This document shows positions 21,199-50,115 of a DNA stretch of 64,000 nt, piece by piece; position 1 is the first letter of the stretch, and the number at the start of each line of letters is the position of its first letter. The stretch spans positions 1 to 64,000 of the forward strand of contig JAJDDX010000085.1 in the NCBI GenBank assembly GCA_029260055.1, read 5' to 3'. The notes under the pieces are model-generated. The model worked only from the letters and a program-made list of their open reading frames with translations. It made no database searches and was not told where the DNA came from. The DNA comes from Phycisphaerae bacterium (GTDB lineage: Bacteria > Planctomycetota > Phycisphaerae > UBA1845). The position numbers and the translations under genes are program-made.

Positions 21199-22977
21199 TT
21201 ACGGACAGACGGCCCCGGGGCAATCGCACGGCGCGGCATGCGGATAGGTTCCGCCCTGGAAGCCGGCAACAGCCGCGTTGATATCCGAGAAGCCGATGTC
21301 GGTAAGGTCGGGGAGCTCAGGCGTCGCCGTACCACCCTGCAGTTCGAGCCACACCTTCGGCTCGGTCTGTATGTTCTGGAACCCGCGCACGACGGAGGCG
21401 ATGTCGTTGAAATTCCGATTGCCGTCGGGCGGCGTGCCGACCGACTCGCCGACCACGTCGCCGTAGAAGGACGTCGTCGTCAGCACGAGCGGATCCGAGT
21501 AGGACGCCTCGTCGCCGACATTCGCCTCCCGGATGATCGCCTGAATGATGTAGGTCTGCCCCGGCGAGATGTGGCAATCACCCAGATGGACGGTCGCATC
21601 CGCGAACGGGACGCCCTGATCGTCGACGTTCCAATCCCGGAGGTGACGCGAGAAGAAGTTCACGATCGGAGCGACGAGTTTCGGCTCCACTTCGCCCGCC
21701 ACGGTCGTCGCCACGGGCTCACCGAGCCACCCCAGCAAGGCCGTCGTGCCACCGCCGAGATCCAACAGCACACGGCGCGCCGACAGCCGTCCGCCATTGC
21801 TCGGGTTCGGCGCGATCGACACGTACCGGTTCTTCGGCACGTAACAGATGCCGCCGACGCAAGTCGCGGTGTTGGCGCAGTGGGCGTCGGACGAGCAGAT
21901 GGCACCGAGGCTGTCTTCGGGCTGCGGCGTGGCGATCGAAAGCGGATCGAAGAGCCAGCCGGAAAGCACGTCGTCCGTCCAGCAATGGACTCTGCCGGCC
22001 TGTTGCGGCGTGAACTCGTTCCAGCAACCCGGTCCGCCGTAGCTCATGTAGTTCTGCGGATCGGTGGCGCCCCACGGTACACCGTTGCACGGGTCGGACC
22101 CGCCCTGTCCCCCGCAGGAATAGCTTACCGGCGTGGGGTCGGTGTCGGAGCAGCGATCGCCGGCGTTGTCATCCGAGGTTCCGGCCCGCTCATAACAGGA
22201 GCTGCACTGGTTGACCTCGGACACCCCGTGATGGGTGTGCCATAGCCCGAGGCAATGGCCCGCCTCGTGAGCCAGCACATCCTGTCCCACGGAGAAGTGG
22301 CCCTGGTCCATCACGATGCCGCCGCCGTTGCCTGTCGCATCTGAGTCCCATGGGAACGTGCCGAACGAGTAACCGCCGCTCACGGAGACGACGTACACGT
22401 TCAGCTTTTCGTTCGGTGCGTCGGCGTAGGCCGACTTCATCGCGTTCTCCTCACCCGAGGACCAAAACCGAAACGTCGAGTTGTTGTGGAAGGAGGTTTC
22501 GTAGGTGAAGTCGATCCGGGACGGGTCGTAGGCGCTGTTGAGCGAGTTCATCTGCCAGTCGACGGTCGACTGTGTCGCCGCGCAATTCGTCCCGTTGGAC
22601 GCGCAGAACACGTGAATGTGTATGCTGTAGGTCGACATCGGTGTGAAGCCGTTCGGGATGAAACCGTCGCGCACGGGGGCGTCATCGCATTGCCCGTCAA
22701 GCGGGCATCCGCCGAAAGCGTCCGATGAGCCGTCGCCGTATCCCTTGGCGATGTAGCGTTCGAAGGTGCCGCACCAACTACCCGGTTCGAGTGCCTGGTC
22801 CCACGAGCTGTCGTCGACCGGAGACGCGGCGGGTGGCGACGAAGCGGGTACCGGTTCAGCCGCAACCGCGAGGGCGGCGGGCAGGGCGAGCGCAGTCAAA
22901 ACTACAGCGACCGCACCTCGTCGGCGTGGGGCCTTCATGCGTGCGCACACAACGGCGCTTGCACGATCTAACATCAT
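21199..22977 (-). CDS. Secreted M43-like zinc metalloprotease
   Basis: A 592-residue exported protein. ATG 22977 has AGGAGGAA 7 nt upstream. A signal peptide (VVLTALALPAALAVAAE) is followed by a pro-region. The zinc site is HEAGHCLGLWH (residues about 237-247) and the Met-turn is NYMSYGG (about 309-315), the pattern of M43 (pappalysin/cytophagalysin-like) metzincins. Several paired cysteines surround the active site. The C-terminal 150 residues hold two short repeats of the type FNDIASVVRGFQN and FSDINAAVAGFQGG, ending in a Cys/Pro tail (CDCPGAVCP). It is a paralogue of the protease part of the protein at 47857. The substrate is unknown. Confidence 0.87.
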   Translation of the reverse strand: MMLDRASAVVCARMKAPRRRGAVAVVLTALALPAALAVAAEPVPASSPPAASPVDDSSWDQALEPGSWCGTFERYIAKGYGDGSSDAFGGCPLDGQCDDAPVRDGFIPNGFTPMSTYSIHIHVFCASNGTNCAATQSTVDWQMNSLNSAYDPSRIDFTYETSFHNNSTFRFWSSGEENAMKSAYADAPNEKLNVYVVSVSGGYSFGTFPWDSDATGNGGGIVMDQGHFSVGQDVLAHEAGHCLGLWHTHHGVSEVNQCSSCYERAGTSDDNAGDRCSDTDPTPVSYSCGGQGGSDPCNGVPWGATDPQNYMSYGGPGCWNEFTPQQAGRVHCWTDDVLSGWLFDPLSIATPQPEDSLGAICSSDAHCANTATCVGGICYVPKNRYVSIAPNPSNGGRLSARRVLLDLGGGTTALLGWLGEPVATTVAGEVEPKLVAPIVNFFSRHLRDWNVDDQGVPFADATVHLGDCHISPGQTYIIQAIIREANVGDEASYSDPLVLTTTSFYGDVVGESVGTPPDGNRNFNDIASVVRGFQNIQTEPKVWLELQGGTATPELPDLTDIGFSDINAAVAGFQGGTYPHAAPCDCPGAVCP

Positions 22978-23045
22978 TTCGCGTTCCTCCTCCGGCCTAT
23001 GGTGTGATTGACTTCTCGTGGGGCGACGACCATTCGAGAACCCGG

Positions 23046-23051
23046 ATTGTA
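23046..23051 (-). promoter_or_regulatory. Putative -10 element before the M43-like protease gene
   Basis: TACAAT on the minus strand, 69 bases before ATG 22977. No good -35 is seen at the expected distance. Confidence 0.35.
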
Positions 23052-23111
23052 CCAGCTCAGTCGGGTCTTGCACGGGAAAAAACCGGTCTGATCGGGCGAG
23101 TCTCACTTCAA

Positions 23112-39869: not shown

Positions 39870-41123
39870 CTACCCGGGTGGGCATGATTCACAGCCGGAT
39901 ATGCTCTGAACGGCGGCGAAGTCGGCCATGTCCACGTCATTGTCAGCGTCGATATCCGCCGGTTCGCACGCCGGTGCCAGAGGCTGCCCAGGTCCGCTCA
40001 TGCAACCGGCGAAGTGGGAGAAGTTCATTGACGCACGTGCGGCCGCAAACTCCGGAGCGTCGATCCGCGAAAACCGGTTCCAGCACTCTTTGGCGTTACT
40101 GCACACCGACACGACCCCGATGATCTCGCCGTCGTGAAGCAGTGCGGAACCGGAGTTGCCGTTCATGATGTCCACCCAGCAATAGTAATCGTGAATATCG
40201 AGATGGAACAAGTGTCCGGTGCTGTGCTGTTGCGTTTGACTCCGGTCTCTGTCGTCGTTGTCCATGCCGTAGCCGAAGACTTCGACGGGGTCTCCCTGAC
40301 CTGCCGGAACGCTCGCGATCGGACGATAGACGCCGTAGCGCTCATACGGGGTCTCGCCCAGGTGGTTGGTTCCGACGGTCATGACCGACCAGTCCGTCAG
40401 AGGCTCGACCCTGGACCACCGGCACAGGTGACCGGTAATGGGAAACTGGTGTTCGGGACCCGGCGCGTTCATGGAGCAGGACCCCGGGTCGGACAGCGGG
40501 ACATTGAACTGAAGTATCTGGTCAAGGTCGCATGCGGAACAGTGTCCTGCGGTGACGGCGCTACTGGCGGTATTGTAGATCGACGCCGTGCAACCGGTGG
40601 GCATCAACCGGCCCGCCCATAGCTCGAACGACGGCACACGATCGTCAACGCCGCCGCATATCCCGCAGTCGGTTTCGTTGCAGGGTTCGCCCCGTCCGGC
40701 CTGCACGATCTTCACGGCAACCCGGTCGAAAGCGATCCGGTTATCGACCGATTTCGGGGCGGCGATCAGCTCCAGGTGAACCGATCCGCCGTTGAAGTAG
40801 GCCGACGTGTAGTTCCACATGGTAAGGCCATCGCCGTCGAGTTCCTGAGTCCCCCCGTCGAGCATCGAGGTCATTCGAACGGACGAGCCCGGACGCAGTT
40901 CGACCTCGGAGAAGTAGAGACGCATTCGCACCGCGTCGCGCACCGTGATCGTCTCTTCGAAGACGACCGAGGCGTCCCGTTCGGTGGTGCCGAGCTTCCC
41001 GCTGTCGAGCGTGTACGGGGCAAACTCGTCCGTTTGCAGGTCCGGTGTGTTCTGAGCGAAGCCGGGGGCTGCGAACAGTCCCAGGAACGTGATGAGAAGC
41101 CGTGATCGTAGCGTGTTCAGCAC
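39870..41123 (-). CDS. Exported trypsin-like serine protease with short dockerin-like tail
   Basis: A 417-residue protein. Translation starts at GTG 41123 (GGAG 8 nt upstream) followed by a signal peptide (LLITFLGLFAAPGFAQN). A beta-rich region of about 150 residues precedes the protease domain, which has His194 (VTAGHC), Asp244 (LTDWSV) and Ser324 (NGNSGSAL). Paired cysteines are many. The C-terminal 35 residues (ADIDADNDVDMADFAAV) form one half of the dockerin-like module. The long frame above 41123 lacks start signals. It is convergent with the LigD_N-like gene, 41 bases away. Confidence 0.85.
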   Translation of the reverse strand: MLNTLRSRLLITFLGLFAAPGFAQNTPDLQTDEFAPYTLDSGKLGTTERDASVVFEETITVRDAVRMRLYFSEVELRPGSSVRMTSMLDGGTQELDGDGLTMWNYTSAYFNGGSVHLELIAAPKSVDNRIAFDRVAVKIVQAGRGEPCNETDCGICGGVDDRVPSFELWAGRLMPTGCTASIYNTASSAVTAGHCSACDLDQILQFNVPLSDPGSCSMNAPGPEHQFPITGHLCRWSRVEPLTDWSVMTVGTNHLGETPYERYGVYRPIASVPAGQGDPVEVFGYGMDNDDRDRSQTQQHSTGHLFHLDIHDYYCWVDIMNGNSGSALLHDGEIIGVVSVCSNAKECWNRFSRIDAPEFAAARASMNFSHFAGCMSGPGQPLAPACEPADIDADNDVDMADFAAVQSISGCESCPPG

Positions 41124-41374
41124 TTTCCTACTCCCCAAGGTGAGGGCACCCCGTCGGCGCGGGTCTGCCGAGTTTGCGGTCAGGCTGATGAGAAGGCGGT
41201 CCCCGTTCCACGGGCGGGTGAACCTCTCCGAGGCTGACACACGGTCAATGGCATTATCCACAATCGGGCGCGCAAAGTCAATGAGAAATGCCACACCCAT
41301 GGCGTTCGCCCTGGGTTCACAACCGGTTCTTAGATTAGAGAAGCCGCGCACGGGTGCGCAATGGCGGTCGGAGA

Positions 41375-42394
41375 TCATGCATTCAGCAGACGGGCGAGCA
41401 CCTGCGTGACTTTGTGTTTCACATCTGCAAGCGAACCCTCGATCCGCGCTGCCGCCGCCCGGCGATGGCCACCGCCGCCGAACTCGTTGGCTACAGCGGA
41501 CACATCAATGTCGGGTGCGCCGTCGTCCAGTGGTGGTTTGCTGCGGAGGCTCACTCGAATAGGACCGCCCTTCTGCTCGACCAGGATCACCGAGACCGCC
41601 AAGGTGGCGATGCGCATCGGCTCGTTGACGATGTTCTCGGTGTCCGCCGGCCCGGCTCCGGCGGCTGCGTAGTCCGCGTCGGTCAGCGTCATGACGGCGA
41701 GACGTTCGTGTTCGAGCAGTTCCAGTGAGTGGATCGCGGCTCCGAGCAGCTTGACCCGGCCTGCGGTGTCATGCTGGAACAGTTGCTGGTGCAGTTCGTG
41801 CGGACGCACACCCTTCGAGGCCAGGTCGGCGGCGGCGGTGAGGATGCGGGTGTCGGCGTTGGAGAACCGGAACCACCCCGTGTCGGTGCCGATCCCGATG
41901 AAGAGTGCATCCCGCGTGACGGCGTTGATAGGCCAATCCATGGCTATGGCCCAATCGTAGAGGATCAGGCAGGCGGCACCGGCTGCTTCATCCACCACGT
42001 AGAAGTCGACGAGCTCGTCTCGATTGACGTGGTGGTCCACCGCGATCTTGGGCAAGCTGCTGGCGGCGAGCCAGTCCGCGATCGGCTCGATCTGCTTTTT
42101 AGAACAGGTGTCGAGCAGCATGACGCCGTCCACGGCGGCGAGGTCGCCTTCGGTCACATCGGAACCGAGGACGGGCAACGGGCCGGAGCGTTCGAAGACG
42201 GCGTAGCTCGGCGCGAGCGGGTCGAACATCAGCGCGATCGGGTCGGCCCCGCAGTGCCGCAGGAGCTCTCGGGCGGCTACGAGCGATCCCAACGCGTCGC
42301 CGTCGGGCTTGGTATGCGTGATCAGGAGGGGCCGGCGCCACTTCGAGACACGCTCAGTCGCTTCGAGGAAGACGGTTCGGTCGAGCCCGCTCAT
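41375..42394 (-). CDS. DHH/DHHA1 phosphoesterase (NrnA-like)
   Basis: A 339-residue protein with the DHH motifs THTKPDGDALGS, GVMLLDTC, AVDHHVNRDE (the DHH) and GIGTDTGWFRFSN, and the DHHA1 end GGGGHRRAAAAR. NrnA-type enzymes degrade short oligoribonucleotides and can dephosphorylate pAp. ATG 42394 has GGGAG about 10 nt upstream. It is six bases after ribF on the same strand, a pairing also known with rbfA and truB in other bacteria. Its length is typical. Confidence 0.92.
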   Translation of the reverse strand: MSGLDRTVFLEATERVSKWRRPLLITHTKPDGDALGSLVAARELLRHCGADPIALMFDPLAPSYAVFERSGPLPVLGSDVTEGDLAAVDGVMLLDTCSKKQIEPIADWLAASSLPKIAVDHHVNRDELVDFYVVDEAAGAACLILYDWAIAMDWPINAVTRDALFIGIGTDTGWFRFSNADTRILTAAADLASKGVRPHELHQQLFQHDTAGRVKLLGAAIHSLELLEHERLAVMTLTDADYAAAGAGPADTENIVNEPMRIATLAVSVILVEQKGGPIRVSLRSKPPLDDGAPDIDVSAVANEFGGGGHRRAAAARIEGSLADVKHKVTQVLARLLNA

Positions 42395-47856: not shown

Positions 47857-50115
47857 ATGACTTTTGCCGCCGTTGAGGCTTGTGGGAAACTTGTAGCCAG
47901 CCGCCGTAGCTGGAGCGTCTCGGCCAATGTCGCGCTGATGTGGCTCGTTGCGGGCCTGCTTTGGGGCCAAGGCAGTAGCGCCGTGGCAGTCGAGCCGGAC
48001 ACGGCTACGTCTTCGGGAACGAACGATTCGGTACAGCCGCTCATCTCTACAATAGATCGCTCGATGGCGGTCACGCACCATGTGATCACGCCCGACGGCA
48101 CGTCGGTCAACGCCGGAGCGTTGGTGGGCGAGGTGGTGTACAGCAATACGACCGGCGGGAACCTGGTGGCATTGCCTCTTGCCAATGTCATGATCGGCGA
48201 CGACATTCGCACGACGACCGGGTGCGGATGCAATCTCGCCGGGTTCGAATTCCAGGTCTACGGTGGCGGTAGCGGCACCGGCCCGGGCCCCACAGTCAAC
48301 TACGCGCTGTACGACTTCTGTCCGAGTGGTGGTGGTCAGGTGATCGCCGGCACGGACGGTTCGTTCACGCTCGACAATGACGGGCTGAGCCTCGTGACGG
48401 TCGACACCTCGGGCACGGGGCTGGCGATCGGCCGGGCCTTCTGGCTCGGGCTAACATTCGATCGCGTCGGAGCCGGTTGGATCACGGGCGCCCCGGCTGA
48501 GGTCGGGCTCACGTTCGACCTCTACGATCTATACGCCACACCGTGCTCGGCCAGCTTCCAGGGTACCCCGCTGTATGCGGGGTTCTACGCGCGGGTCTTC
48601 TGCGAATCCGCCGGGGCACCGACCCCGGCGAACGGCGCGACGGATGTGCCGGTCGAGACCGACCTTGTTTGGAGCGGGTACGGGATTGACCCGACGGATG
48701 GCGGCAGCCCGAACCCGGGCCCGGGCGGCGGCGCGGCCGCGATCGATCCGTCGTGGGCGGACAACCTCGAGCCGGGGAACTTCTGTGCGACGCAGGCGCG
48801 TTACGAGGCCGGGGTGCAGGCGAGAGGTGGTGGTGCCGCAGCCGGCGGAGGATGCACCATGTTCGGCGGTTGCGATGAACCCAGCACACGCGACGTCTTC
48901 ATCCCGGACGCCGGCACGCCCATGAGCACCTACAGCATGTTCCTTCACGTGTTCTGCGAGGACGACGGATCGAACTGTGCGGCTTCGGTGGCCAGCGTCG
49001 ACGGGACAATGACCAGGGTCAACGCGGACTATGCACCGTATCGAATTCAGTTCGATTACGAGATGGCGTTTCACAACCACTCGGAGTACCTGCACTGGAG
49101 TTCGAACGAAGAGAACCCGATGAAGTCGGCTTTCTCGGTCTTTCCGGCGGAGTCGCTCAACGTCTTCGTCGTGGATGTCGGCGGGTATTCCTTCGGGACG
49201 TTTCCCTGGGACCCCGAGGCTCTGGAGTTCGGCGGCGGCATCGTCATGGACAAGGACATGTTCGGCCCGAATGACTCGACGCTCACGCACGAGGCGGGGC
49301 ACAATCTCGGGCTCTGGCACACGCATCACGGCGTATCGGAGGTCGGGGAGTGCAGCGCGTGCTGGGAGGAGCCTCAGAGCTACAGCAGCACGACGGGCGA
49401 TCGTTGCGCGGACACCGACCCGACGCCGACGAGTTGGTCGTGCAGCCCGCCCGGCGGTATCGACCCCTGCAGCACCTTGCCATGGGGGCAGACGGACACC
49501 GACAACTTCATGGGTTACGCCGGCAGCCCCTGTTGGGACAACTTCTCCGACATGCAGGCCGGCCGCATGCACTGCTGGACGGACGATCGCCTGATCGGCT
49601 GGCTCACGTCAGTGTGCGGCGCTACCTATGATGTCTACTTCGATGTGGACAGCCCGCCGACGACGTTGCTTTGCAGTGGCTCCGACACACCCTACTGCGA
49701 CCCGGGCGTCCTTACGCCGCAGACTACGTACTACTGGCGTGTGGTGGCCACGAACGAGATTGGCGTCGGCGAGGGCCCGATCTGGTCGTTCACGACGGCG
49801 GCCGTCCAGGACTGCAACCACAACGGCATCCCCGACTCGCAGGACATCGCCGTGGGTGCCAGTTTGGACTGCAACGGCAACCTCATGCCCGACGAGTGCG
49901 ACACGATCGCCGGCGGCGACTACTACCCCGACGGGAACGTGGATATGCTGGACCTGCCGGGCTTTATCGACTGCACAGCCGGGCCGGGCGCGACACCGGC
50001 TCCGACCGTGCCGGACTGCCTGAGCGCGTGCCTCGCCGCGTTCGACTTCGATTCCGACGGCAGTGTGGATCTGCGAGACTACAGTGCTTTCCTGCAGGCT
50101 GCGAGCGCGCCGTAA
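47857..50115 (+). CDS. Chimeric secreted metalloprotease: N-module, FN3-like domain split by M43-like protease, dockerin-like tail
   Basis: A 752-residue exported protein. GGGGAGGA lies 8 nt before ATG 47857, and a hydrophobic segment (VALMWLVAGLLWG) forms the signal. Residues about 90-250 are the module shared with the FG-GAP protein. Residues about 255-275 (PANGATDVPVETDLVWSG) start an FN3-like domain whose rest resumes at about 586-648 (TYDVYFDVDSPP; TTYYWRVVATNE; IWSFTT). Between them sits an M43-like protease with HEAGHNLGLWH (478-488) and Met-turn NFMGYAG, paralogous to the protein at 21199. Then come DCNHNGIPD and DCNGNLMPDECD linkers and a two-part dockerin-like tail ending QAASAP. 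The substrate is unknown. Confidence 0.88.
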   Translation: MTFAAVEACGKLVASRRSWSVSANVALMWLVAGLLWGQGSSAVAVEPDTATSSGTNDSVQPLISTIDRSMAVTHHVITPDGTSVNAGALVGEVVYSNTTGGNLVALPLANVMIGDDIRTTTGCGCNLAGFEFQVYGGGSGTGPGPTVNYALYDFCPSGGGQVIAGTDGSFTLDNDGLSLVTVDTSGTGLAIGRAFWLGLTFDRVGAGWITGAPAEVGLTFDLYDLYATPCSASFQGTPLYAGFYARVFCESAGAPTPANGATDVPVETDLVWSGYGIDPTDGGSPNPGPGGGAAAIDPSWADNLEPGNFCATQARYEAGVQARGGGAAAGGGCTMFGGCDEPSTRDVFIPDAGTPMSTYSMFLHVFCEDDGSNCAASVASVDGTMTRVNADYAPYRIQFDYEMAFHNHSEYLHWSSNEENPMKSAFSVFPAESLNVFVVDVGGYSFGTFPWDPEALEFGGGIVMDKDMFGPNDSTLTHEAGHNLGLWHTHHGVSEVGECSACWEEPQSYSSTTGDRCADTDPTPTSWSCSPPGGIDPCSTLPWGQTDTDNFMGYAGSPCWDNFSDMQAGRMHCWTDDRLIGWLTSVCGATYDVYFDVDSPPTTLLCSGSDTPYCDPGVLTPQTTYYWRVVATNEIGVGEGPIWSFTTAAVQDCNHNGIPDSQDIAVGASLDCNGNLMPDECDTIAGGDYYPDGNVDMLDLPGFIDCTAGPGATPAPTVPDCLSACLAAFDFDSDGSVDLRDYSAFLQAASAP

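Follow-up and report, generated by a model that had tools for sequence, protein, structure and literature searches.

In human pappalysin-1 (PAPP-A), module M1 is an FN3-type domain that is split into 30 + 60 residues around a looped-out second module, M2 (PMC9579167). In unicellular pappalysins, a Cys-Gly motif of the pro-segment blocks the zinc. These enzymes are zymogens with a cysteine in a short pro-segment; mirolysin, for which a cysteine switch is known, is cleaved at Ser54-Arg55, 32 residues past its Cys23 (PMC6949598). Beyond this family, the A1-B-A2 insertion topology, in which one domain interrupts another, occurs in ~20% of multidomain proteins. According to a survey of such events, the insert is smaller than the host in 77% of them (medians of 115 and 199 residues) and the insertion sites are evenly spread; fibronectin and immunoglobulin domains are unnamed in the main text of that survey (PMC13114784). 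Herein, we describe a planctomycete gene in which a pappalysin-type protease stands between the two parts of an FN3-like domain, together with related genes in which the same loop is occupied by other domains.

The gene lies in a window of 64,000 nucleotides, the whole stretch of DNA that was analysed, from a genome assembled in 500 contigs with an estimated contamination of 4.84%. It encodes, in an uninterrupted frame, a protein of 752 residues (P0001; Table 1), the N-terminus of which reads as signal-peptide-like, of the secretion type. The N-terminal domain that follows (residues ~91-250) received no name in a Pfam search. On contig C183 of the same genome (G000), at ~7700-30500 of the minus strand, at least seven closely spaced genes carry an N-terminal domain of this type, apparently as a tandem family. 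Downstream of this domain in P0001, PTPANGATDVPVETDLVWSG (residues ~255-274) belongs to the first part of the FN3-like domain and CGATYDVYFDVDSPP...TTYYWRVVATNE...GPIWSFTT (residues 587-647) forms the second. Between strands A/B and strands C-G there are ~310 residues, in which an intact pappalysin (M43) domain is preceded by a presumed pro-segment. A preliminary description of this DNA had proposed this order, an FN3-like strand, an M43-like stretch of about 310 residues and an FN3-like continuation. It is borne out by the translation, by a Peptidase_M43 match of the insert at 30.4 bits (curated Pfam cut-off 23), and by the adjacency of both flanks in a paralogue, considered below.

Table 1. 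Features of the gene for P0001 and of a free-standing paralogue of its protease (window coordinates).
Feature	Position	Strand	Basis
Complete gene for a secreted protein of several domains (752 aa) with nested pappalysin-type metalloprotease	47857..50115	+	Single open frame
N-terminal domain, residues ~91-250; recurs in at least 15 own-genome paralogues	48127..48606	+	Own-genome search
Strands A + B of the FN3-like domain (first part), residues 252-276, core Trp272	48610..48684	+	31.0 bits with the N-half HMM (controls 3.9 at most); conserved in C147, C48, G014
Start of insert, residues 277-344: linker rich in Gly/Pro, then presumed pro-segment with Cys310	48685..48888	+	Nested and free relatives aligned
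Pappalysin (M43) catalytic domain, residues 345-585	48889..49611	+	Pfam Peptidase_M43; PAPP-A match; AlphaFold2 core; Foldseek
Zinc-binding motif HEAGHNLGLWH, residues 478-488	49288..49320	+	Invariant residues in 27 relatives
Met-turn, Met552	49510-49512	+	Invariant in 27 relatives
Strands C-G of the FN3-like domain (rest), residues 587-647	49615..49797	+	C-half profile match 1.1e-29; strands at pLDDT mostly 70-89
Acidic DCNxNGxPD repeats	49807..49917	+	Read from sequence; similar stretches in many own-genome proteins
Dockerin-I-like C-terminus, weak	49915..50085	+	PF00404, 12.5 bits, under Pfam cut-off 22.9, E 0.18
Free-standing paralogous pappalysin, 635 aa, no flanking FN3 halves	21199..23106	-	Own-genome search, alignment; catalytic domain 54-55% identical to nested one

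The host domain of P0001 itself gives no call at the Pfam cut-offs, and its assignment to FN3 had at first been a matter of pattern. A profile (A5) of 19 natural, uninterrupted relatives now bears the assignment out: among solved FN3 domains it matches that of chitinase A1 (1k85) with an E-value of 1.5e-5 over profile positions 5-87, and 3mpc with 2.4e-4. Single uninterrupted members of the family also match Pfam fn3 (best E 6.7e-5), and an FN3-like identity of the host is supported by these sequence comparisons. In the alignment of A5 with 1k85, LSW (strand B) and YDVY (strand C) stand on either side of the B-C loop, and therefore the protease insert sits in that loop. An HMM of the N-half, trained on uninterrupted copies only, scored the N-half of P0001 at 31.0 bits, the maximum for reversed and shuffled controls being 3.9. 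This score and the adjacent flanks in a paralogue (C326, below) show that the split does not arise by chance.

As for the insert, it is matched by human PAPP-A with an E-value of 1.5e-28, and Foldseek with the AlphaFold2 model of P0001 returned PAPP-A, mirolysin and ulilysin. H478, E479, H482, G485, H488 and M552 are invariant in 27 relatives, which gives the HExxHxxGxxH motif and the Met-turn. Judged by its sequence, the insert is a member of the pappalysin family (M43, metzincin clan), of which proteolytic activity, with cleavage before Arg/Lys, would be expected. When planctomycete pappalysins were compared as a profile (alignment A3), the match to PAPP-A (E 9e-55) was followed by those to mirolysin (1.5e-10) and ulilysin (8e-06); in terms of these profile matches, they are far nearer to vertebrate PAPP-A than to bacterial/archaeal mirolysin or ulilysin. 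The alignment of the pro-segments places an Ala after Cys310, a presumed zinc-blocking residue, in P0001, and a Gly in two nested relatives of the same genome (C147, C48) and in the free-standing paralogue of the window. Because the mirolysin cut lies 32 residues after Cys23, and because Arg345 is invariant in 27 relatives and lies 35 residues past Cys310, Arg345 is the predicted P1' residue of an activation cut at Thr344/Arg345, which would fall inside the insert.

A search for homologues without the insertion, proposed in the preliminary description, was successful. Paralogue C326 of this genome, which shares the N-terminal domain, aligns with residues 91-277 of P0001 at C326:5197-4622 and with residues 585-686 at 4621-4313; it is without the protease, and both matched stretches abut to the base. 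Contiguous FN3 halves also occur in C43 and in many further homologues. On the other hand, the same nested protease with the same junctions is found in C147 and C48 and in a gene of another genus (G014; JACQXM010000050.1). The protease likewise exists outside the host. In addition to the paralogue in the window (Table 1), ~30 more free-standing pappalysins were found in Planctomycetota, Zixiibacteriota, Verrucomicrobiota and others, with no flanking FN3 halves among those read. The host without insert (C326) and the insert without host (free-standing pappalysins) are thus both at hand, as an A1-B-A2 domain insertion entails, and the insertion of the protease as a cassette, one of two readings in the preliminary description, is supported by the contiguous-halves homologues together with the protease homologues lacking FN3 halves. 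No direct or inverted repeats of at least 8 bases were seen at the two insert junctions in the stretches compared, and hence no trace of a mobile-element mechanism. Nor does the insert have a distinct base composition, GC3 being ~79-85% in the N-terminal domain, the insert and the FN3 C-half alike. As a separate observation, the free-standing paralogue at 21199-23106 (minus strand) has a C-terminal domain similar to the one that ends L025, the nested protein of G014, and not to that of P0001.

The interruption is not confined to these genes. With the uninterrupted FN3 domain of C326 as query, several matches elsewhere start only near strand C; upstream of it stands another domain, which the FN3 N-half precedes in turn. 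The C-half was then searched as a profile (A2), its best matches were taken with ~2.6 kb of upstream sequence, and the N-half was scored with an HMM from 46 uninterrupted copies. In the class, 93 FN3 copies with distinct C-halves were read. The B-C loop is short in 58 of them, at 5-9 residues (15 in two); 56 of these scored with the N-half directly in front, and two (L126, L127) were added on reading. In the remaining 35 the B-C loop is replaced by ~200-500 residues, a proportion of 35/93 that is no class frequency, as the profile by which the copies were picked was itself made mostly of interrupted ones. For 29 of these 35 interrupted copies, the N-half found upstream reaches 4.3-33.5 bits, above the control maximum of 3.9, two being marginal (4.3, 4.4); in the other six it scores below that maximum and was placed by close relatives and reading. 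By our count, the core Trp of strand B is retained in 32 of the 35, as would be expected if both halves still share a core. A full-length FN3 profile of uninterrupted copies was also run over 114 genomes of the order. Among ~160 matches listed, 16 are incomplete on the N-side, starting at profile position 18-32, and all 16 large interruptions are cases read as B-C interruptions, although short fragments from breaks in other loops could escape such a scan. Only two of the matches listed are incomplete on the C-side, one at a contig end and one covering 3-80.

The domains in this loop, here called passengers, are diverse. They were named by Pfam, fold or motif, several of the names being weak, below cut-off or given by eye. 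The M43 pappalysin is the passenger in four genes. An S1 trypsin-like passenger with the pattern TAGHC...D...GNSGSP occurs in eight genes, spread over four families within the class (Trypsin_2 59.9 bits; elastase and factor D by Foldseek), and one further S1-looking nested case (L213) lies outside the class. The passenger of L118 is metallopeptidase-like, with HEFEHRFG and no Pfam match. GATase1-like, DUF4350 or similar-looking passengers were read in L116, L119, L120, L121, L125, L134, L117, L166, L189 and L194, propeller-like ones in L122 and L124, NIDO-like ones in L171, L181, L182, L185 and L197, and MAM-like and other ones in L161, L128, L137, L199 and L117. Since pappalysin, trypsin, DUF4350 and MAM pass the curated cut-offs in the members tested, four mutually unrelated passenger families are firm. 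The subtilase-like L117 (G097:C15:609000-618000, minus strand) has two consecutive split FN3 domains with different inserts. The window also holds, at 39870-41378 of the minus strand, a 502-residue secreted-looking protein with TAGHC and GNSGSA, apparently a trypsin-like protease that is un-nested as far as read.

Taken together, the adjacency to the base of the flanks in C326, the junctions shared by C147, C48 and G014, and the free-standing pappalysins elsewhere make the insertion real. We consider it likely that P0001 represents a genuine, conserved domain insertion, in which a zymogen-type pappalysin occupies the B-C loop of a planctomycete FN3 subfamily that repeatedly accepts passengers, the halves closing as a clamp. 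The two FN3 halves may co-fold at the termini of the passenger: strands A/B and C-G would close into one sandwich around its ends, and this sandwich would fasten both ends of the enzyme to an extracellular protein of several domains. A cut of the pro-segment at Thr344/Arg345 would nick the chain between FN3 strands B and C. As the cut lies inside the insert, retention of the N-terminal domain would depend on continued packing of the FN3 halves, and the nicked protein may be held together through the FN3 beta-sheets. The clamped display of a secreted enzyme is the function proposed for the host.

How the various passengers came to share one loop is a further question. One hypothesis is exchange rather than repeated fresh insertion: after the FN3 domain had once been split, unrelated domains would have been swapped by recombination through its conserved halves. 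We regard this as a tentative reading, less probable than its opposite. It is favored by C147 and C48, whose FN3 C-halves are 99.3% identical (152/153 nt), as against 74% for the protease and 82% for the N-terminal domain; identity thus jumps near the insert/FN3 boundary, as though a breakpoint lay close to that junction. Their last 138 bases are identical (L016 2-139 and L017 2-139), and the two contigs break off at one and the same base within the FN3 C-half; the collapse of a longer shared repeat during assembly would have this effect. No contig with the downstream part was found. However, this evidence comes from a single gene pair that a contig break cuts short, and gene conversion following duplication would account for it just as well. 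The protease tree also speaks for exchange. The four nested genes, the free-standing paralogue of the window and a free-standing G078 gene form one clade (96/87) in which nested and free genes are mixed. A single origin of the nested M43 state, with the four nested genes held together, is rejected at the borderline by this tree (AU p 0.044); grouping the three nested genes of the same genome is not rejected (p 0.57). Against it, the tree of the FN3 C-half intermingles interrupted and uninterrupted copies; with only 61 columns and weak forks, it does not give the order of the insertion events. With similar reserve, the B-C loop could be viewed as a dedicated, reusable socket for whole, unrelated enzymes, which would occupy one fixed position in a beta-sandwich far smaller than themselves, with the FN3 halves acting as homology arms for the exchange of passengers between genes. 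For such a socket, M43 and S1 are firmly identified protease families and the HEFEH type is probably a third.

Alternatively, the FN3-like stretches might be separate elements, the first linker-like and the second a beta domain that is either truncated or self-sufficient, with the protease merely standing between two modules. Structure prediction, which the preliminary description had put forward as a check on whether the halves pack together, did not settle the packing. The AlphaFold2 model of P0001 (27 rows) has a confident protease core and a folded C-half, the strands of which are mostly at pLDDT 70-89. The N-half was left unplaced, residues 252-334 being below pLDDT 50; as only four rows cover that stretch, this outcome does not count against co-folding. 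An S1-type nested case (eight rows) came out much the same, with the N-half unplaced, and Foldseek on the whole models reported the enzyme and not FN3. A folded C-half beside a disordered N-half is what separate elements would predict. However, the halves are contiguous in C326, in C43 and in the 58 copies with a loop of 5-9 residues as a rule, and the N-half of ~25 residues is too short to fold alone, yet keeps its FN3 strand A/B features across unrelated passengers. We therefore judge separate elements to be improbable. Finally, a local recombination chimera or assembly error fusing a protease gene to an FN3 gene, the other reading of the preliminary description, might be suspected from the 500 contigs and the contamination estimate, but it is hardly credible: four independent genes in two genera have common junctions (C147, C48 and G014 exclude a chimera limited to one contig, and the G014 orthologue refutes it), the frames are open, no shift in GC3 is seen at the junctions, and the same FN3 site is interrupted in many other genomes.

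The insertion in the B-C loop, as we prefer to read it, has several implications. Passengers two to five times the size of the host at one loop offer a natural set for testing what lets domains accept inserts, and they provide a precedent from nature for the display of enzymes on FN3 loops. They also open a route to enzymes that escape annotation owing to the split of their host. Moreover, the family gains bacterial pappalysins that resemble human PAPP-A more than they do ulilysin or mirolysin. No published report of FN3 B-C loop passengers was found in the literature, most subscription journals lying outside the search.

Among known systems, mirolysin and ulilysin, the lower pappalysins, share with P0001 the metzincin fold, HExxHxxGxxH and a short pro-segment with a Cys (PMC6949598), but they are single-domain, un-nested proteins, and their sequence match is much weaker than that of PAPP-A. 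Cytophagalysin is a bacterial secreted pappalysin that, as P0001, has FN3-like (Ig/FN3-like) domains; these follow its catalytic domain in tandem, and no nesting is reported there (PMC11674741). Metallopeptidase flagellins do carry a metallopeptidase nested inside the variable region of another protein, although peptidase, host and purpose are different, and there is a single kind of passenger (PMC5595980). In comparison with the surveyed insertions, a host of ~90 residues that takes unrelated inserts of ~200-500 residues at one loop departs from the trends in both size and site (PMC13114784). Human PAPP-A has the nearest solved catalytic domain to the P0001 protease, by sequence and by fold, and its M1, split 30 + 60, is much like the P0001 host, split 25-30 + 61 (PMC9579167). 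Judged from residue counts rather than from structural superposition, the two domains may be split at the same loop. In PAPP-A, however, M1 comes after the catalytic domain and has M2, of the C2-like/F5-8 type C, nested in it, whereas in P0001 the protease itself is nested.
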